Source of the DNA: Opitutus sp. GAS368
Lineage (GTDB): Bacteria > Verrucomicrobiota > Verrucomicrobiia > Opitutales > Opitutaceae
Length of the DNA: 64,000 nucleotides
Reading direction: 5' to 3'
Assembly (NCBI RefSeq): GCF_900104925.1
Contig: NZ_LT629735.1
Span: forward strand, 2,698,291 to 2,762,290
The notes beneath the pieces were generated by a model. That model saw only the letters and a program-made list of their open reading frames with translations, was not told where the DNA came from and did not search any database. The position numbers were made by a program, and so were the translations under genes. This document shows, one piece after another, positions 786 to 7,948 of this stretch (positions are counted from its first letter, which is position 1; every line of letters starts with the position of its first letter).

Positions 786-1505
786 TCAGAGCCGGTAGCC
801 GGCGGAGGCGGCGTCGTTGGCGAACATCTTCACGGTGTCGAGCGACAGCGCGGCGAGGTCCAGGCCGAGAAGCTTGGCGGCCTTGGCGAGGATGTCGTGC
901 TGCACGGTGACGATGTGGCAGCCGCTCTGCTCGGCCTGCACGATGTTCAGCACCTCGCGCACGCTGGCCCACAGCAGCTCGGCCTTGGGCTGGCCGGCGA
1001 GGATCTGCCGGCTTTCGCGCATGATCGGCATCGGATCGACGCCGGTGTCGGCGATGCGGCCGGCGAAAATCGAAACGACGGACGGCACCTGGGGATTCAA
1101 CGCCGCCGCGACAGCCCGCACCTGCTCCAGGGTGAGGATGGCGGTGATGTTGAGCTGCACACCCTGGGCGGCCAGCTCCCGGATGAGCGGGATGGCCGAC
1201 TCGGCGCGGGTGTTGGTGATGGGGATCTTGACATAGACGTTCTTGCCCCAGCCGGTGATTTTCAACGCCTGGCGCTTCATCTCCGGGAAATCGTCGGCGA
1301 AAACCTCGAGCGAGATCGGCTTGGCCGTGACGGTCTGCAGGATGTCCCTGGCAAAGGCCTCGTAGTCGGTGATGCCCGCCTTTTTCATCAGGGTCGGATT
1401 GGTGGTCAGGCCCTTGATATAGGGCTTGGCGTAGAGGTCGAGAATCCCGGCCTTGTCCGCTCCGTCGGCGTAGATGTGGATCTTGAGAGTATTCAGGGTC
1501 AGCAT
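786..1505 (-). CDS. Transaldolase family protein (TalC/F6P-aldolase-like)
   Basis: A 239-residue TIM-barrel aldolase of the short transaldolase type. Visible motifs are TTNPT (residues 34-38), VYVKIPIT with the Schiff-base lysine at 93, and NITAIL (119-124). Family members move a dihydroxyacetone unit between fructose 6-phosphate and erythrose 4-phosphate, giving sedoheptulose 7-phosphate, or cleave fructose 6-phosphate. The next genes upstream in the operon (gmhB-like, gmhA-like, hddC-like) consume sedoheptulose 7-phosphate, so a local supply role is attractive but inferred. The start ATG is 8 bp downstream of the gmhB-like stop. Short transaldolases and fructose-6-phosphate aldolases cannot be separated here by eye. 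Confidence 0.88.
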   Translation of the reverse strand: MLTLNTLKIHIYADGADKAGILDLYAKPYIKGLTTNPTLMKKAGITDYEAFARDILQTVTAKPISLEVFADDFPEMKRQALKITGWGKNVYVKIPITNTRAESAIPLIRELAAQGVQLNITAILTLEQVRAVAAALNPQVPSVVSIFAGRIADTGVDPMPIMRESRQILAGQPKAELLWASVREVLNIVQAEQSGCHIVTVQHDILAKAAKLLGLDLAALSLDTVKMFANDAASAGYRL

Positions 1506-1513
1506 GCAGCCAG

Positions 1514-2074
1514 TCAGCTAATCGCCTTGGACTGGGCAAGAACAATGCCGGCCGCCTCGGTGAAGGTGCGGGCCGTAAAGTCGGGCTTTTGTCGCAGCGG
1601 CTCGTCGTAACCCCGGTCGATGAAGACGGTGCGGCAAGCGGCGCGGGCGCCGCAGTCGACGTCGCGCCAGCGGTCGCCGATCATCCAGCTGCCGGCGAGG
1701 TCAAGGCCAAGCGCCTGCGCGGCGTCGGTGAGCATGCCCGGCTCGGGCTTGCGGCGCCGGTCATCCGGGTGCCCCACGCCCCGGCCGGGGGCGTAGCAAA
1801 CCTCGATGCGGGCGATCTCTGGGATGAGCTGCCGCAGGTGGGCGTGCATGGCCTCGACCACCGCCTGAGGCTGCGTCCCGCGGCCGACATCAGGCTGGTT
1901 GGTGGCGACGACGAGCACATAGCCGGCGGCGTGGAGTTGCCTGCAGCCTTCCGCGACGCCGGGCAGCAACTGGAACTCCACCACCGTCGCGGGCGGGTAG
2001 GGCCGGCCTTCGCGCACGAGCGGCGCGTTCAGCGTTCCGTCGCGGTCCAGAAACACGGCACGCCGCTTCGTCAT
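1514..2074 (-). CDS. gmhB: D-glycero-D-manno-heptose 1,7-bisphosphate phosphatase, HAD family
   Basis: A 186-residue HAD phosphatase. It shows the nucleophile motif DRDGT (residues 10-14), TNQ at 58-60, KPEPGM at 109-114 and GDRWRDVDCG at 133-142, the layout of the GmhB/HisB-N group. It should remove the 7-phosphate from heptose 1,7-bisphosphate in the cytoplasm. Typical GmhB enzymes carry a zinc loop with several Cys and a His before K-P-x-P-G-M; here the segment 93-108 keeps only one Cys and one His, so a structural zinc is unlikely. It lies 13 bp after the gmhA-like stop. The neighbouring genes supply the other three steps to GDP-heptose, which supports the assignment. Confidence 0.85.
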   Translation of the reverse strand: MTKRRAVFLDRDGTLNAPLVREGRPYPPATVVEFQLLPGVAEGCRQLHAAGYVLVVATNQPDVGRGTQPQAVVEAMHAHLRQLIPEIARIEVCYAPGRGVGHPDDRRRKPEPGMLTDAAQALGLDLAGSWMIGDRWRDVDCGARAACRTVFIDRGYDEPLRQKPDFTARTFTEAAGIVLAQSKAIS

Positions 2075-2087
2075 GGCGGAACGCGGC

Positions 2088-2684
2088 TCAGCGCGTGCTC
2101 TCCCATTTCGTCTGATTCACCTTGAGGTCCGGGTGGGAGACGAAGAGGTGCCAGACGACAGCCTGGAAGGCCTCGGAGTGCGGTGTGACGTTGTTCGGGT
2201 TAACGGTCGGCACGATGACGCAGGCGTCGGCGACCGTGGCGGTGTAGCCGCCGTCCTTGCCGACGATGCCGATGACGCGGGCGCCGACCTGCTTGGCGAA
2301 CTGGAGCGCCAGGACGAGGTTGGGCGAGACGTTCTTCTCGAGGTTGCCGCCGCCGACGGAGAGGATGAGGAGCGTGTCCTTCAACGTGAGCCGCGAGCCG
2401 CGCAGCCACTCGACGAACACGCTGGCCCAGCCCTCGTCGTTGGTGCGGGCGGTGAGCTCGGAGACGTTGTCAGTCGGGGCGTAGCACTCGAGCCCGGCGA
2501 TCTTCCGGAAATCGTTCACCGCATGCGATGCGTTGGCCGCGCTGCCGCCGACGCCGAGGATGAAGAGCCGGCCGCCGCGTTCGCGCGTGGCACGCAGCTC
2601 GGCGACGCACTTCTCGCAGTCGGCGGGGTTGAGCTTCGCGACAATCTCGGCGGTTTCCTTGAGGTGTTGGGCGGCGTAGGACAT
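2088..2684 (-). CDS. gmhA: Phosphoheptose (sedoheptulose 7-phosphate) isomerase, SIS domain
   Basis: A 198-residue single SIS-domain protein, the usual GmhA length. The sugar-phosphate loop GVGGSAANASH is at residues 44-54, TNDEGW at 81-86, and the C-terminal HSEAFQAVVWH helix at 169-179 carries the His and Glu expected in the active site. GmhA converts sedoheptulose 7-phosphate to D-glycero-D-manno-heptose 7-phosphate, the committed step to activated heptose. It is 5 bp from the nucleotidyltransferase stop-start junction on one side and 13 bp from gmhB on the other, in a single run of minus-strand heptose genes. Confidence 0.9.
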   Translation of the reverse strand: MSYAAQHLKETAEIVAKLNPADCEKCVAELRATRERGGRLFILGVGGSAANASHAVNDFRKIAGLECYAPTDNVSELTARTNDEGWASVFVEWLRGSRLTLKDTLLILSVGGGNLEKNVSPNLVLALQFAKQVGARVIGIVGKDGGYTATVADACVIVPTVNPNNVTPHSEAFQAVVWHLFVSHPDLKVNQTKWESTR

Positions 2685-2689
2685 GGGGA

Positions 2690-3415
2690 TTAGGCGCCAG
2701 CAGAACGTTTTCGGAGGAGTTGGTCGAGTTCGTTCAGGCCGGCGGGCGAGCCGATCTCGTAGAAACGCTCCTTCACCTCGTAGCCCGCCAGTTCGCCCCG
2801 GGCGCAGAGATCGGCCTGCACCGCAGTCAGGTCAACGACAGTGTTGCGCGGGCAGCCGGCGAAGGCGGCGGCGCGGAACAGGCCTAGGCCATAGTCGATG
2901 TGCCGCATCTGCAGGGGCTTCTCCTTCTTCGAGTAAAGCCTGATACGGCCGTCCTCGAACCACACGTTGCTGGCGTCGTAGGCCTCTCGGTTCTCGAACA
3001 CGGTCATCAGGCCGAGCTTGCCGGACACCAGAAAGGCGCGCCCGACGTCCCGGTAATCGATGGGCAGGTAGGAATCGCCGTAGAGGACGTAGAAGGCGTC
3101 GCCGAGTTTGGGCAGGGCGCGGATGAGCGCGCCGCCGGTGCCGAGGAGGTTCGGGCCGTCGAACGAGTAGTCGATCTGCACGCCCCATTTCGCGCCGTCG
3201 CCGTAACGGTCGGCAATCATCTCGCCGAGATGGCCGACACAGAGCACGACATGCGTGAGGCCGGACTTTTTGAGCAGGCGCAGCTGGTGGGAGAAGAACG
3301 GCTCGCCCGCGACCTCGACGAGCAGCTTGGGGATTTTCTCCGTGACGGGCCGGAGCCGGGTGGCGAGGCCGCCCGCGAGGATGGCGACGGGGAGGTCTGG
3401 GTCTGGGGTTTTCAG
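2690..3415 (-). CDS. hddC: Heptose 1-phosphate nucleotidyltransferase (HddC-like), probable CTG start
   Basis: A 241-residue nucleotidyltransferase with AILAGGLATRLRP (residues 11-23), PKLLVEV and the metal-binding LYGDS at about 111-115. With gmhA, gmhB and the GHMP kinase alongside, the expected product is GDP-D-glycero-alpha-D-manno-heptose; an ADP or CDP donor cannot be excluded. No ATG, GTG or TTG lies in frame between the upstream membrane-peptide gene and the core motif. The best start is CTG at 3415, which overlaps the TGA of that peptide gene as CTGA, so initiation is probably by translational coupling. The open frame extends to 3745, but that part only shadows the neighbouring genes. 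Confidence 0.82.
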   Translation of the reverse strand: MKTPDPDLPVAILAGGLATRLRPVTEKIPKLLVEVAGEPFFSHQLRLLKKSGLTHVVLCVGHLGEMIADRYGDGAKWGVQIDYSFDGPNLLGTGGALIRALPKLGDAFYVLYGDSYLPIDYRDVGRAFLVSGKLGLMTVFENREAYDASNVWFEDGRIRLYSKKEKPLQMRHIDYGLGLFRAAAFAGCPRNTVVDLTAVQADLCARGELAGYEVKERFYEIGSPAGLNELDQLLRKRSAGA

Positions 3416-3564
3416 AAAGCGACGTAGATGAAGGGCTGCACGGGCAGGGAAATCCGGTAGAGCAGGTAGTGCAACAACACGCCGATGGCGAGCCCGAGCA
3501 AAAAATGGCCGAGCAGGCGCAGCTGAGGCGCGAAGGGAAGCCGGTCGAGCAGACGGGTCAGCAT
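3412..3564 (-). CDS. DltX-like 50-residue membrane peptide of an MBOAT/SGNH acylation system
   Basis: This short gene reads MLTRLLDRLP at its start, has one hydrophobic segment (about residues 17-36) and ends in PVQPFIYVAF. It begins 2 bp after the SGNH-protein stop and directly follows the MBOAT-SGNH pair. In Dlt systems a peptide of similar size, DltX, has one membrane helix and a C-terminal FIY-x-x-F-like motif whose tyrosine is proposed to carry the acyl group between the MBOAT DltB and the SGNH protein DltD. Length, topology, the C-terminal FIYVAF with Tyr47 and the position all fit that role. The assignment is inferred from motif and context. Confidence 0.62.
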   Translation of the reverse strand: MLTRLLDRLPFAPQLRLLGHFLLGLAIGVLLHYLLYRISLPVQPFIYVAF

Positions 3565-3566
3565 GG

Positions 3567-4727
3567 TCAGGGGTGGTTGATTTCGGTGATCCGGCGGGCG
3601 ACGATTTGGGCGACTTTTTGCCCGCCGTCGCCGGAAAGATGGGCGCGATCAATGAAGTCCTCCGGCGCGAAATCGATGCCGACGATGTCGCAGGCGATGC
3701 CATGATCGCGCCAGATTTGGGCGCAGGCGGCATAGACGCAGGCATCGCGCGCCTGTTCGGCGGGGGTCAACCGGGCCCGGTAGTAGGGAGCATTCTGGCT
3801 GAGCAGAATGAGGGAGCGCGGCCGTAGCGCGGGGAGGAACGAGGCTTCGATGTCATCGGCCAGTCGTTGCCGGTTGCCGGCCTCCAGGAGCCAGCCACCC
3901 GCCGCATCCGGCACGGCCAAGGAGGCCGAGAAGCTGCGCACGATGGCCATTTCCTCGGGTAGGAACTGCCGGAAGCGCAGGTCGGGCGGCTGGGCGTGCG
4001 GCTCGTTGTCGGGGAAGCTGGCTCGCGGCTGCCAGGAGTCGCCGGCCAGGACGAAGTTCCAGACCGTGAAGAAGTGACGGTAGCCCACATGGTGCCACAA
4101 TGATTGGTGCCGGAACCACGGTTCCAGCCGGGCGCCGAGGTGTTCCTCCGCCTGCTGCTGTTTTTCCGCGGGCGACAGCGCACCCAGCCAGAGGCGTATG
4201 CCCTGGTCCCGCGCGACGAAGGACGCGAGCCGGTCCTGCTCGAGGGCCTGCCAATAGAAGTAGCCGCTGGCGCCGCCGGGTGCGCGGCCCGCGGCGGCCG
4301 CTGGGTTGGTGTTCGCCACGTAGAGGACCGGCAGGCCACGGCGCAGCAGGGACTCGGCCACGAGGGCGGCGCCTTGGGTGGGTGCGGCGCCCCGAAACGC
4401 CAGGTTCACCACCACGTAGGAGTCGCCCAGCAATTCCTGCAGCCGCGTGCTCCACAACTCGTCCGCCGGCTGGCCCACGCCGTTCAGGATGGAATTGCCC
4501 CCGATGATGACCAGCGTCTTGCCGGGTTGCCAGCGCGCGAGAGCGAGGGTTTCCAGCATCGCATAGGGTGGAAAATAAATGGTGTCCGGGCTGATCCGCT
4601 GGTGAAAGCGTTTGAAGTTGTCGGGCTTGCTGTAGCCGGCGGCCAGGTGTCCCTGCCAAGTCGCGCCGAGGAATCCGAGGAGGATTCCGGCTAGCAGGAT
4701 CCAGCTGGAGCGACGCGGGGAGTTCAT
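3567..4727 (-). CDS. SGNH-hydrolase-like membrane-anchored O-acyltransferase partner (AlgJ/DltD-type)
   Basis: 386 residues from the ATG at 4727, which overlaps the MBOAT stop as ATGA. An N-terminal hydrophobic segment (about 8-25) anchors it, and the rest should be periplasmic. GGNSILNG at 76-83 provides the nucleophilic Ser79. DRAHLSGDGG near residue 360 gives the Asp and His of block V, so the SGNH triad is complete. Such proteins accept an acyl group delivered through the partner MBOAT channel and place it on a polysaccharide. The frame stays open upstream to 5591, but that part shadows the MBOAT gene. The glycan acceptor is unknown. Confidence 0.75.
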   Translation of the reverse strand: MNSPRRSSWILLAGILLGFLGATWQGHLAAGYSKPDNFKRFHQRISPDTIYFPPYAMLETLALARWQPGKTLVIIGGNSILNGVGQPADELWSTRLQELLGDSYVVVNLAFRGAAPTQGAALVAESLLRRGLPVLYVANTNPAAAAGRAPGGASGYFYWQALEQDRLASFVARDQGIRLWLGALSPAEKQQQAEEHLGARLEPWFRHQSLWHHVGYRHFFTVWNFVLAGDSWQPRASFPDNEPHAQPPDLRFRQFLPEEMAIVRSFSASLAVPDAAGGWLLEAGNRQRLADDIEASFLPALRPRSLILLSQNAPYYRARLTPAEQARDACVYAACAQIWRDHGIACDIVGIDFAPEDFIDRAHLSGDGGQKVAQIVARRITEINHP

Positions 4728-5929
4728 GATTGATCCAAGGCGAAGAGTTTGGCCGCCATCCGCAGGGCAGGCAAAGGTTCGTAGAAGAAGAGCAGCCAGC
4801 CCAGTGCGACGTGGAGCAGGGTGAGCGCCCAGCCCAGCACCGGCAGGCGGGCAAACCCGCCGGCCAGCCACCGGCCCGTCGCGCCGAGCACGCGGGAGTA
4901 GGACAGGCTCACCGCGAGCCCGAGGCCATGCCAGAGGCCCCACAGCACGAAATGCCAGGCGGCTCCGTGCCATAGTCCGCAAAGGGCGAAGACCACCAGG
5001 CCGTTCAGAAGCTGGCGGGCCAGCCCGTGCCGATTGCCCCCGAGCGGAATGTAGACGTAGTCGCGGATCCACGAGGTCAGGGACATGTGCCAGCGCTGCC
5101 AGAAATCCCCCAGGCTCGTGGCTAGGTAGGGATACTGGAAATTCTCGGGCAGGCGCACCCCGAGCATCCGCGACAGGCCGATCGCCATGTCGGTATAGCC
5201 GCTGAAATCGAGCAGGATGCGCGCGGTGATCGCGGCGAGCAGGAGCCAGGCCCGGCCGAGCGGCAGCGCGGCGAAGTTGTCGCCGTAGAAATTGATCACC
5301 AGCGTGAGGTTGTCCGCGAGGATGATCTTCTTCACCAGGCCCAGGGCCAGGCGCCGGGCGCCCGCGGCCACGTCGTCCACATTGACCCCGGCGAGGCCGG
5401 CGTGGAGGCTCGGAAGGTATTCCTGGAAGCGCTTGATGGGGCCGGCGACGAGCGAGGGAAAATGGATCGCAAAGAGCGCGAAGTCGTCGGGCCGCCGGAT
5501 CGGCGGTTTGCCGCGGAATACCTCCACGAGGTAGTGCACGAACTCGAAGGCAAAGAAGCTGATGGCCAGCGGGGCCGCCGCCGGCAGCCAAGCCCGAGCC
5601 TGGCGTTCAAAATGCTCCGCCGCCACGGGACTGATCCGGCCCAGCAGCCCCTGGCTGAAAAACAGGGCATATTTATAGAAACACAGGGCCGCCACGCACA
5701 GCACGATCGCCGCCACGCAAGCCGCGCGAAGCCGCGTGAGGGCCGCCAGGTAGGTGACCAGGCCGAGTACCACGATCGGCAGCACGCCGGCGGGACCGGC
5801 GAAGTGCAGGTGAAAGAACGCGCAACCGGCCAGCAGCCAGGCCCGGCGCGCCAACGGGTGGCGGAGAAGCCAATAGACGGGAAAGAACGCGGCGCTGAAG
5901 CAGAAGAACCAGTAGGTATTGAAGATCAT
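4724..5929 (-). CDS. MBOAT O-acyltransferase (AlgI/DltB-like)
   Basis: A 401-residue polytopic membrane protein with about ten hydrophobic segments. It has the family signature region FWQRWHMSLTSWIRDYVYIP (277-296) and the invariant histidine in GLWHGAAWHFVLWG (His321). MBOAT proteins of this type move an acyl group, usually acetyl, across the inner membrane for O-acylation of exported polysaccharide. The SGNH gene and a DltX-like peptide gene follow with a 4-bp overlap and a 2-bp gap, making a three-gene acylation unit inserted within the heptose genes. The unit presumably decorates the glycan built by this locus. Confidence 0.9.
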   Translation of the reverse strand: MIFNTYWFFCFSAAFFPVYWLLRHPLARRAWLLAGCAFFHLHFAGPAGVLPIVVLGLVTYLAALTRLRAACVAAIVLCVAALCFYKYALFFSQGLLGRISPVAAEHFERQARAWLPAAAPLAISFFAFEFVHYLVEVFRGKPPIRRPDDFALFAIHFPSLVAGPIKRFQEYLPSLHAGLAGVNVDDVAAGARRLALGLVKKIILADNLTLVINFYGDNFAALPLGRAWLLLAAITARILLDFSGYTDMAIGLSRMLGVRLPENFQYPYLATSLGDFWQRWHMSLTSWIRDYVYIPLGGNRHGLARQLLNGLVVFALCGLWHGAAWHFVLWGLWHGLGLAVSLSYSRVLGATGRWLAGGFARLPVLGWALTLLHVALGWLLFFYEPLPALRMAAKLFALDQS

Positions 5930-5951: not shown

Positions 5952-6935
5952 TCAGTTCTGGGTCACCACTTTTGTGCCCTCGAAGTCGAAGCGGAAACGG
6001 ACCTCCTGCAGGCCCTTCTCGCGCATGGCGTGCCGGAGCCTGGTCTTGTCCGCGGCGTAGAACATGAGAAAGCCGCCGCCGCCGGCGCCGATCAGCTTCC
6101 CGCCGAGGGCGCCGTGCGCCCTAGCGTAGTCATACCACTCGTTGATGCGGGCGTTGCTCATGCCGGTGCTGCGCGATTTCTTGCGCTGCCAGTGGACGTC
6201 CATGAGCCGGGCGAACTCGTCGAGGTTGCTGCTTTCGAGCGCGGCGAGGGACTGATGGCCGAGATCCTTGGTGAAATGCAGGTGGTCGAGCATCGCCTGG
6301 TTGTTCTGCTTCGACTTGTCGTTCTGGTCCTTGAGAATCGCCGAGGCGGAGCGCGAGTAGCCCGTGAAGAAGAGCAGCAGGTTGTCCTCGAGGTTGAAGA
6401 GCGTCTCCTCGGTGATCTTGACGGGCCGGTATTCGACGCGGCCGTCCTGGTGGAAGGTGAAGGCCGTGATGCCGCCGATCGCGGCGATATACTGGTCCTG
6501 CTTGCCGATGGGCTCGCCGAGTTTGTCGATCTCGATGTGGCAGGCCTGCTCCGCGAGCTCGGCGGGGGAGATCAGGTGCTTGTTGGCCGCGTGGAGAACC
6601 TTCAGCAGCGCGGTGGTGAAGCTGCCCGACGAGCCGAGCCCGGTGCCGCCCGGAATGTCGGCCATCGACGTCAGCTCGAGCGAGCGGCCGTCCATGCCGA
6701 GCAGCGCGAAGGCTTCGCGGATGATCGGGTGTTCCAGCTGCGCGGCAGTGGGGACGCGCTCCAGCTTGGAATACTTTACGATCAGGTCGGGCACGAAGGT
6801 GCGGTGCAGGGTGAGGTAGACGTATTTGTCGAGCGCCCCCGCCACGAGAAAGCCACCGTGCTCGCGGTAATAGGAGGGCAGGTCGGTGCCGCCGCCGCCG
6901 AGGGAGATGCGCAGGGGGGAACGGGTGATGATCAT
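5952..6935 (-). CDS. hddA: D-glycero-alpha-D-manno-heptose 7-phosphate kinase, GHMP family
   Basis: 327 residues from the ATG at 6935, where MIITRSPLRISLGGGGTDLP opens a classic GHMP kinase. The ATP-binding loop PGGTGLGSSGSF is at 95-106 and a C-terminal KLIGAGGGGF segment completes the fold. HddA phosphorylates C1 of heptose 7-phosphate to the alpha 1,7-bisphosphate, which commits the pathway to GDP-heptose rather than the ADP-heptose of inner core. The start overlaps the oxidoreductase stop as ATGA. With gmhA, gmhB and hddC types present, the four-step pathway is complete. The frame reaches 7274 but the N-terminal excess shadows the oxidoreductase gene. Confidence 0.88.
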   Translation of the reverse strand: MIITRSPLRISLGGGGTDLPSYYREHGGFLVAGALDKYVYLTLHRTFVPDLIVKYSKLERVPTAAQLEHPIIREAFALLGMDGRSLELTSMADIPGGTGLGSSGSFTTALLKVLHAANKHLISPAELAEQACHIEIDKLGEPIGKQDQYIAAIGGITAFTFHQDGRVEYRPVKITEETLFNLEDNLLLFFTGYSRSASAILKDQNDKSKQNNQAMLDHLHFTKDLGHQSLAALESSNLDEFARLMDVHWQRKKSRSTGMSNARINEWYDYARAHGALGGKLIGAGGGGFLMFYAADKTRLRHAMREKGLQEVRFRFDFEGTKVVTQN

Positions 6936-7948
6936 GGGGAAAGCGGCGCGTCGGCGACGGGGTAGCCGCTTGAGCGGTAGATGTGCTCGACGATTTCGAG
7001 GGTGCGGATGCCTTCGCGCAAGCCGGGATTGGGCGCGCGGCCGGTGCGGATGTCCGCCTCGAAGGCGGCGAGCTCGAGCTGCCAGGAATTGTCGCCGGCC
7101 GGATAGTCCCACACGGTCGTTTCCGGCGGGCCCATCTGCGGCAGCATCTTGTAGTAAGTGCATTTCTCCGGCCCGTAGCTGCCGCCGAGGCCGTCGATGG
7201 AAATCTTGGCGTCGCGGCCATAGAGCTCGAGGGAGAAGAGATTCTTCCACTCGGTGCAACTCACGTGCAGCCACGCGGTCTGGCCGCCGGCCGTGCGCAG
7301 CGAGAGGAAGGCGTTGTCATCCACCTTCATGTCCCAGAAATAGGTCGCGGCGTGGCCGGCGACGCTCGGGAAGTCGCCCAGGAACCAGCCGGCGAGGTCG
7401 ATCAGATGCACGCCTTGGTCGATGAGTTCGCCGCCGCCGGAGAGCTTGGGGTCGGCGCGCCACTCGCGGTCGTAGCCCGTGCGACCGCCGTGGCCGTAGC
7501 GGCCGCGCAGGAACATCATCGGACCGAGGACGCGGGACTCGAAGAGCTCGCGGGCCTTCTGCAGCGCCGGATGAAAGCGGTGGTTGTAGCCGAGGCGCAC
7601 CCTGACGCCGGCCGACTCGGCGGCGGCCTGCACGGTGCGCAGCTGCGCGGCGTTGAGGGCGCCGGGTTTCTCCACGAGCACGTGCTTACCAGCGCGCACC
7701 GCCGCCAGAGTGAGCGGCGCGAGCGAACCGTTGAGGGTGGCGATGATGACGGCGTGGACGGCGGGGTCGGCCAGGACCTGCTTGAAATCCGTCGTGGCCA
7801 TCGCGCCGGCGTGGGTCTGGGCCAGCTCGGCGGCGCGGGCGGCGTCGAGATCGCAGGCATGGCGCAGTTGGCCGGGCGCAAGGGCCGCGGCGCGCTTGCG
7901 GCCGATGAGGCCGCACCCGGCGATGGCGAACTGCAGCGGGGCAGCCAT
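6932..7948 (-). CDS. Gfo/Idh/MocA-family sugar oxidoreductase
   Basis: 338 residues from the ATG at 7948. The Rossmann loop GCGLIG (11-16) and the EKP motif (93-95) mark the Gfo/Idh/MocA family, and GGELIDQGVHLIDLAGWF carries the conserved catalytic-region histidine. These enzymes oxidise or reduce a sugar hydroxyl with NAD(P). Its start overlaps the SDR stop by one base (TGATG) and its end overlaps the kinase start, so it belongs to the heptose module. I infer that it modifies the heptose or its nucleotide form, but the position oxidised cannot be read from sequence. Confidence 0.85.
   Translation of the reverse strand: MAAPLQFAIAGCGLIGRKRAAALAPGQLRHACDLDAARAAELAQTHAGAMATTDFKQVLADPAVHAVIIATLNGSLAPLTLAAVRAGKHVLVEKPGALNAAQLRTVQAAAESAGVRVRLGYNHRFHPALQKARELFESRVLGPMMFLRGRYGHGGRTGYDREWRADPKLSGGGELIDQGVHLIDLAGWFLGDFPSVAGHAATYFWDMKVDDNAFLSLRTAGGQTAWLHVSCTEWKNLFSLELYGRDAKISIDGLGGSYGPEKCTYYKMLPQMGPPETTVWDYPAGDNSWQLELAAFEADIRTGRAPNPGLREGIRTLEIVEHIYRSSGYPVADAPLSP

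Follow-up and report, generated by a model that had tools for sequence, protein, structure and literature searches.

A separate 50-residue membrane microprotein as a probable acyl shuttle for an MBOAT-SGNH pair outside the Dlt systems

The MBOAT, SGNH and microprotein genes

The window analysed here is a stretch of 64,000 nucleotides from Opitutus sp. GAS368 (NZ_LT629735.1, positions 2,698,291 to 2,762,290), in which a minus-strand gene cluster contains an MBOAT acyltransferase gene, an SGNH-type transferase gene and a 50-codon gene for a small membrane protein (the microprotein), the subject of this report. The order of transcription is GHMP-type kinase, MBOAT, SGNH, the 50-codon gene, nucleotidyltransferase, SIS, HAD and transaldolase-like gene. 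The MBOAT gene closes with the four bases ATGA with which the SGNH gene begins, and the microprotein starts 2 bp past the SGNH stop. The open reading frame (ORF) coordinates thus confirm the arrangement described in a first-pass annotation of this DNA, namely an MBOAT gene, an SGNH gene sharing 4 bp with it and, 2 bp on, a 50-codon gene whose product ends in FIYVAF. Tyr47 of the microprotein, Ser79 of the SGNH protein and His321 of the MBOAT likewise sit where that annotation had placed them.

The MBOAT (4724..5929, minus strand) has 401 residues, which is the length of DltB. It matches the Pfam family PF03062 with 94.8 bits against a cut-off of 27 (E 8.4e-27), and its sole NCBIfam match is DltB (TIGR04091) with 154.7 bits, below the cut-off of 375. 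The histidine His321 (codon 4967..4969) is invariant in 28 of 28 aligned MBOATs, so that both profile and histidine place the protein in the MBOAT family. Its C-terminus reads FALDQS and is free of the FxYxxF motif. For the MBOAT of a relative (L033), the top PDB folds found by Foldseek with a predicted model are those of DltB (6bug/8jem).

The SGNH-type transferase (3567..4727, minus strand) has 386 residues and an N-terminal hydrophobic helix. It shows the features of the SGNH superfamily, a block I serine in a GxSxxxG-like motif (GGNS79ILNG) and a block V DxxH (D360RAH363). Ser79 (codon 4491..4493), the proposed acyl-serine nucleophile, occurs in 33 of the 34 sequences of one alignment and Asp360 and His363 in all 34, while all three are invariant in a second alignment of 28 rows. 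The pattern G[NGDS]SxxxG fits 27 of 29 SGNH proteins, the other two reading GGASYFRG with the serine retained, and DxxH fits 29 of 29. The protein matches no Pfam family above cut-off and no NCBIfam family. With the predicted model of the SGNH protein of a close relative (L025), SGNH/DltD folds came first in Foldseek; the nearest PDB fold, DltD (6pfx), was found at E 2.1e-4 with a template-modelling score of only ~0.4.

The microprotein (3412..3564, minus strand; MLTRLLDRLPFAPQLRLLGHFLLGLAIGVLLHYLLYRISLPVQPFIYVAF) has a single hydrophobic stretch, residues 17-35 (3460..3516), with a mean Kyte-Doolittle hydropathy of 2.03, and ends in the hexapeptide FIYVAF (3415..3432), which contains Tyr47. 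It gave no significant match in Pfam or NCBIfam and none in the PDB.

Conservation of the microprotein and the placement of the tail

When the SGNH protein was used as bait among 273 genomes of the order, 7 matches were obtained in 5 genomes. The microprotein adjoins the SGNH gene at all six judgeable loci (the window and L004-L008), with histidine in place of the tyrosine at L007; the seventh locus (L009) stops at a contig edge and hence is not judgeable. A scan of the genome contigs with five microproteins, based on the motif or on an HY[LV][LI]YR stretch, gave 35 loci, of which 31 are labelled Opitutae, Opitutia, Opitutales or below, one Verrucomicrobiales and three Cyanobacteria, Melainabacteria or Obscuribacterales. 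Rows were dropped for L022 (in-frame stop, broken MBOAT), L042 (contig edge), L015 (same stretch as L005) and L045-L048 (repeats). The locus L039 is counted in the 39-row alignment and in the tally of 40 copies.

The first-pass annotation had proposed a search of related genomes for small ORFs that follow MBOAT/SGNH genes and share a C-terminal FIYxxF. The expectation was clearly borne out: F-x-Y-x-x-F ends 39 of the 40 tallied copies. The ends read PFIYVAF in 35 copies and PFIYVVF, PFIYAVF, PFVYVGF, PFIYANF and PFIHVAF in one each, the divergent PFVYVGF and PFIYANF copies having come from a profile search and not from the motif search. In the 39-copy alignment the helix end, the tail and an LP-x-x-P stretch ahead of the motif are conserved, and the C-terminal residues are the best-conserved part of the protein. 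Eight copies were gathered outside the motif scan, as the starting point, by the SGNH bait or by profile (window, L004-L008, L049, L141), and all but L007 keep F-x-Y-x-x-F.

In 24 of the 40 copies the overlap of the gene with the preceding stop is exactly 4 bp. In 53 within-group pairs from five groups of close relatives, substitutions in the last 32 codons are distributed over the three codon positions as 271/115/788, and the nonsynonymous rate (dN) is below the synonymous rate (dS) in all 44 pairs with computable dS, the other nine being saturated. The complete gene orders are MBOAT-SGNH-microprotein (28 loci, L039 included), MBOAT-microprotein-SGNH (3) and SGNH-microprotein-MBOAT (1), with eight of the 40 loci incomplete. 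The peptide remains adjacent to its partners in all three orders, and such variation is expected of an independent gene that is bound to stay with them. These results show that the 50-codon gene is genuine and conserved and that purifying selection acts on it.

A search with PF03062 in 61 genomes of the bacterial family returned 38 MBOAT matches in 28 genomes. Every match was examined together with as much as ~5 kb of flanking sequence, or less where a contig ended. Three are fragments (G627:C90, G627:C5 and G126). Twenty-eight carry the motif as their own last six residues, as F-x-Y-x-x-F in 27 and as Y-I-Y-G-Q-F in one. The stretches around these 28 fused-type MBOATs contain no microprotein (profile, E ≤ 1e-3), no small motif-ending ORF and no SGNH gene of this family (E ≤ 1e-5). 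The remaining seven are tail-less, and a microprotein lies near six of them (window, L005 and the stretches of G614, G607, G256 and G013); at the seventh (G260:C141) the contig ends inside the SGNH gene. For each judged MBOAT the motif is therefore found either at its own C-terminus or in the product of a neighbouring gene. Among MBOAT ORFs in reach of a microprotein, 33 of 33 are without a terminal motif, or 32 of 32 usable ones once the joined ORF of L039 is removed. These partner MBOATs lack the fused motif that other MBOATs of the family carry and have no other candidate tail. A single Melainabacteria genome (G640) has nine MBOAT matches: one tail-less with a microprotein, four fused and four not classified. 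In the fused-type MBOAT with the deviating end (L181:5287-6897, minus strand; G600:C340), which reads PYIYGQF, tyrosine replaces the first phenylalanine of the motif.

A tree was made of 56 MBOATs: 23 with a microprotein, the divergent L097, 29 of the fused type and three DltBs. The 23 microprotein partners form one clade (100/99) with L097 beside it (99/86), the fused set lies on the opposite side (93/87) and DltB stands far off on a long branch. By this grouping, the separate-peptide state here is not simply an imported Dlt system. With DltB as outgroup, a separate-first history needs one fusion and a fused-first history two splits, on narrow sampling and with the long DltB branch. Because DltB and the microprotein-partner clade both fall outside the fused clade, the tree would also fit a separate peptide as the ancestral state and the fused tail as derived. 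The identification of the window MBOAT as DltB itself was rejected on its score (154.7 versus 375 bits) and its separate clade.

A putative acyl relay and its alternatives

The microprotein is most probably, with a probability of roughly 0.85, a detached acyl shuttle that acts in trans for the adjoining MBOAT-SGNH pair, outside any Dlt system. In the proposed relay, the MBOAT (His321) would take an acyl group, most likely acetyl from acetyl-coenzyme A (CoA), on the cytoplasmic side and hand it to Tyr47 of the FIYVAF tail, placed at the periplasmic mouth of the enzyme. The acyl-tyrosine tail would then swing over to Ser79 of the SGNH protein, itself anchored in the membrane, and this protein would transfer the acyl group to a hydroxyl group on a glycan at the cell surface; in the window the glycan is probably one with a heptose that the flanking genes make. 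The chemistry at the tyrosine is inferred, together with donor, cargo and acceptor. An acyl-tyrosine shuttle is reported on DltX and on the fused tail of PatA (PMC12148441). The carrier domain PF00550 has 10 matches in the genome and none inside the window, which makes an acyl-CoA donor likelier than a dedicated DltC-type carrier. Heptose-type neighbours are common to 12 compared loci (window, L004, L005, L010, L011, L012, L022-L025, L028 and L029), and the other compared loci have glycosyltransferase, methyltransferase or epimerase neighbours, or within the retrieved stretch none of the neighbour types considered; with neighbours that differ in this way, the acceptor probably varies.

The DltX/DltB-DltD system for the D-alanylation of teichoic acids in Gram-positive bacteria likewise has a separate single-helix peptide of similar length with a C-terminal FxYxxF, beside a tail-less MBOAT of DltB length and an SGNH protein; the DltX of Enterococcus casseliflavus has 45 residues and ends in FIYNEF. 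The first-pass annotation had called the microprotein DltX-like, which holds as a working likeness, as it has both the DltX-type single hydrophobic helix and the C-terminal motif. It does not hold as family membership: a search of the whole genome with the DltX profile PF12459 gave nothing at E ≤ 1, and the family is absent from the Pfam hits (E ≤ 10) of five microproteins. The window also differs from Dlt systems in its SGNH protein of no known family, its sugar-nucleotide/glycan cluster and the position of the peptide gene, which lies beside MBOAT and SGNH and not in front of dltA. No AMP-ligase family was found among the 20 scanned ORFs of the window, dltA elsewhere in the genome not having been sought. 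The hosts of the microprotein belong to diderm groups, unlike those of the Gram-positive Dlt system. Plasmid searches gave no match with the microprotein and only the self-match with a single DltX query, and a scan of two further dlt regions saw no motif-ending DltX.

With PatA-PatB, which O-acetylates peptidoglycan, the locus shares the FIYxxF hexapeptide, the nearness of fused-type MBOATs in the tree and the absence of a dedicated carrier protein. In PatA, however, the motif is placed on extra C-terminal helices of the MBOAT, whereas here it is placed on a separate gene, mostly beyond the SGNH gene. AlgI is another MBOAT with a fused motif. The FIYVAF of the window differs from the FIYANF of Neisseria PatA at two positions, and the relative L141 ends in FIYANF itself; the O-acetylated FIYANF hexapeptide worked as a donor for PatB, according to PMC12148441. 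The same paper describes for AT3-SGNH enzymes such as OatA a comparable relay from acyl-tyrosine to acyl-serine, but OatA is a single fused protein with an AT3 membrane domain and its tyrosine lies between helices.

Three other explanations have to be weighed. The microprotein might be a structural clamp for MBOAT and SGNH, or a stabiliser of the MBOAT in place of its absent C-terminal helices, and carry no acyl group. Such a role would fit the binding of DltX to both DltB and DltD (PMC12148441), as well as conservation that extends to the helix and the LP-x-x-P stretch; a clamp is nevertheless unlikely, as conservation peaks at the C-terminal residues, with the tyrosine in 39 of 40 copies, and the partner MBOATs offer no other tail. 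It is less probable still that a true Dlt system for D-alanylation has spread to Gram-negative bacteria. DltB is the only NCBIfam match of the MBOAT, the MBOAT model of one relative lies nearest to DltB structures and the SGNH model of another has DltD as its first PDB hit, yet the MBOAT stays under the DltB cut-off and groups with the fused type and not with the three DltBs. Against a Dlt origin also stand the DltX profile without a hit in the genome, the location of all 10 PF00550 matches outside the window and the SGNH profile, which did not align with a DltD (probability 0.3%). That the reading frame is a chance ORF or the start of the downstream gene would agree with its size below the usual cut-offs and its lack of matches in Pfam, NCBIfam and the PDB. 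This is next to inconceivable in view of a dN well below dS, 40 conserved copies, 24 exact 4-bp overlaps and a variable gene order, and in our view the substitution pattern refutes it.

Several observations nonetheless weigh against a detached shuttle and the evidence marshalled for it. The scan based on the motif or the HY[LV][LI]YR stretch supplied 32 of the 40 copies, so motif conservation among those partly reflects how they were selected, and start codons in the 40-copy tally were chosen by the authors where several were possible. An AlphaFold2 model that joined the L033 MBOAT to the microprotein encoded in frame downstream of it, with glycine in place of the stop, had a mean predicted local distance difference test score (pLDDT) of 80, mostly above 80 in the MBOAT and 43-59 in the peptide; the SGNH-microprotein read-through of L025 had a mean of 89, mostly above 90 in the SGNH protein and 31-74 in the peptide. 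These models predict a helix in the peptide and not its docking, and they speak neither for nor against the shuttle. At L033:1-12108 the microprotein lies beside an MBOAT, and no SGNH gene of this family was found in the 12 kb. The microprotein profile aligned with fused C-termini and with one DltX over the motif region only, with probabilities of 16% and 1%, which leaves common descent of the peptide with either without support.

Non-Dlt MBOAT-SGNH pathways are described in a 2025 paper (PMC12148441) as having no DltX-like microprotein. In a literature search that left out preprints and most subscription journals, no title or abstract was found that reports a DltX-like microprotein outside Dlt, and the term 'DltX-like' occurred in full text in PMC12148441 alone. 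The first-pass annotation expected a shuttle of this kind to generalise the Dlt mechanism to Gram-negative glycan acylation; the separate peptide is new, but the chemistry was already known in Gram-negative MBOAT-SGNH systems from PatA and its fused motif. In such systems the shuttle role had been ascribed solely to a fused tail of the larger enzyme, and here a separate peptide very probably carries acyl groups across the membrane to surface sugars. The shuttle model is said to come from Schultz and others (2023, Nat Microbiol), whose paper may hold a survey that bears on this point. The locus breaks the division between Dlt systems with a separate peptide and non-Dlt systems with a fused tail. 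Here MBOAT, shuttle and SGNH protein are naturally separate parts in a non-Dlt setting that has no carrier protein nearby. This makes it possible to study how the shuttle locates the individual active sites, whether one shuttle can replace another and which of the two states is the older. A 50-codon gene is also, owing to its size, of the kind that annotation can easily miss.

Distribution, exceptional loci and flanking genes

The microprotein is rare and patchy, with profile matches in 6 of the 384 genomes searched from the class and none found in four sampled other members of the genus of the window. In a profile search of 387 genomes, 63 matched at E ≤ 0.1, and those with E values above 1.2e-4 were put down to chance. 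Among 386 genomes of the phylum of G639 (Obscuribacterales) there were two matches, G639 itself and a weak one in G859 (E 6.9e-4, no motif-ending ORF seen), which was not counted. The presence of the microprotein in both Opitutaceae and genomes labelled Obscuribacterales suggests transfer between them.

The genome G196 has one MBOAT hit and two SGNH-microprotein pairs ~82-86 kb apart. The first pair (L008/L144) adjoins the MBOAT. The second (L004/L153, G196:C17:694575-698696) lies in a cluster of heptose-type kinase, SGNH, microprotein and nucleotidyltransferase genes from which the MBOAT is gone, with ~70 bp between the kinase and SGNH genes, where relatives carry the MBOAT. If the second pair works, the single MBOAT must serve both. 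It may be, though this is doubtful, that the detached shuttle is the mark of a third bacterial lineage of MBOAT-SGNH machines, one whose cassettes of shuttle and SGNH protein can draw on an MBOAT from a different place in the genome. In G181 (L007:2720-2905, L140), the microprotein ending in PFIHVAF, with histidine for the shuttle tyrosine, lies beside an SGNH gene; no MBOAT was found in the 5.6 kb upstream, where inspection shows a LacI-like ORF, and the only MBOAT hit of the genome is of the fused type. In this single case, loss of the tyrosine appears to go with loss of the partner.

Some loci are divergent or damaged. G256 (L049/L138/L188) has a trio of a PFVYVGF microprotein, the tail-less MBOAT L097 and a long SGNH-like protein, and ~1.3 kb downstream a broken second stretch that resembles the microprotein and its surroundings. 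At L022:6001-6162 the microprotein has an in-frame stop and the MBOAT is spread across several frames, as in a decayed or poorly assembled locus. At L039:5264-5914 a deletion or an assembly fault has left a single ORF composed of an MBOAT portion and the C-terminus of an SGNH protein; the microprotein gene downstream of it is intact.

The flanking genes of the window all lie on the minus strand. A GHMP-family sugar kinase gene (5952..6950, start approximate; Pfam GHMP_kinases_N/C) is directly upstream of the MBOAT gene. Downstream of the microprotein gene are a sugar-nucleotide nucleotidyltransferase (2690..3415; NTP_transferase), a SIS-domain gene (2088..2684; SIS_2), a HAD phosphatase-like gene (1514..2074; HAD families) and a transaldolase/fructose-6-phosphate aldolase-like gene (786..1505; TAL_FSA). 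The kinase, nucleotidyltransferase, SIS and HAD genes resemble those of the GDP-D-glycero-D-manno-heptose pathway (HddA, HddC, GmhA and GmhB), a likeness at the level of Pfam families alone. Farther upstream in the window, Pfam identifies sugar dehydrogenases, an epimerase, glycosyltransferases and methyltransferases, and these together with the sugar-nucleotide genes point to a cluster of the surface-glycan type. The nucleotidyltransferase gene has no ATG, GTG or TTG close to its conserved N-terminus; its probable start, on comparison with relatives, is a CTG (3413-3415, minus strand) that overlaps the TGA of the microprotein gene as CTGA. The same CTGA overlap is seen in the relatives L023 and L025, while L028 has TTGA and L010 has CTGA plus an ATG slightly farther in.

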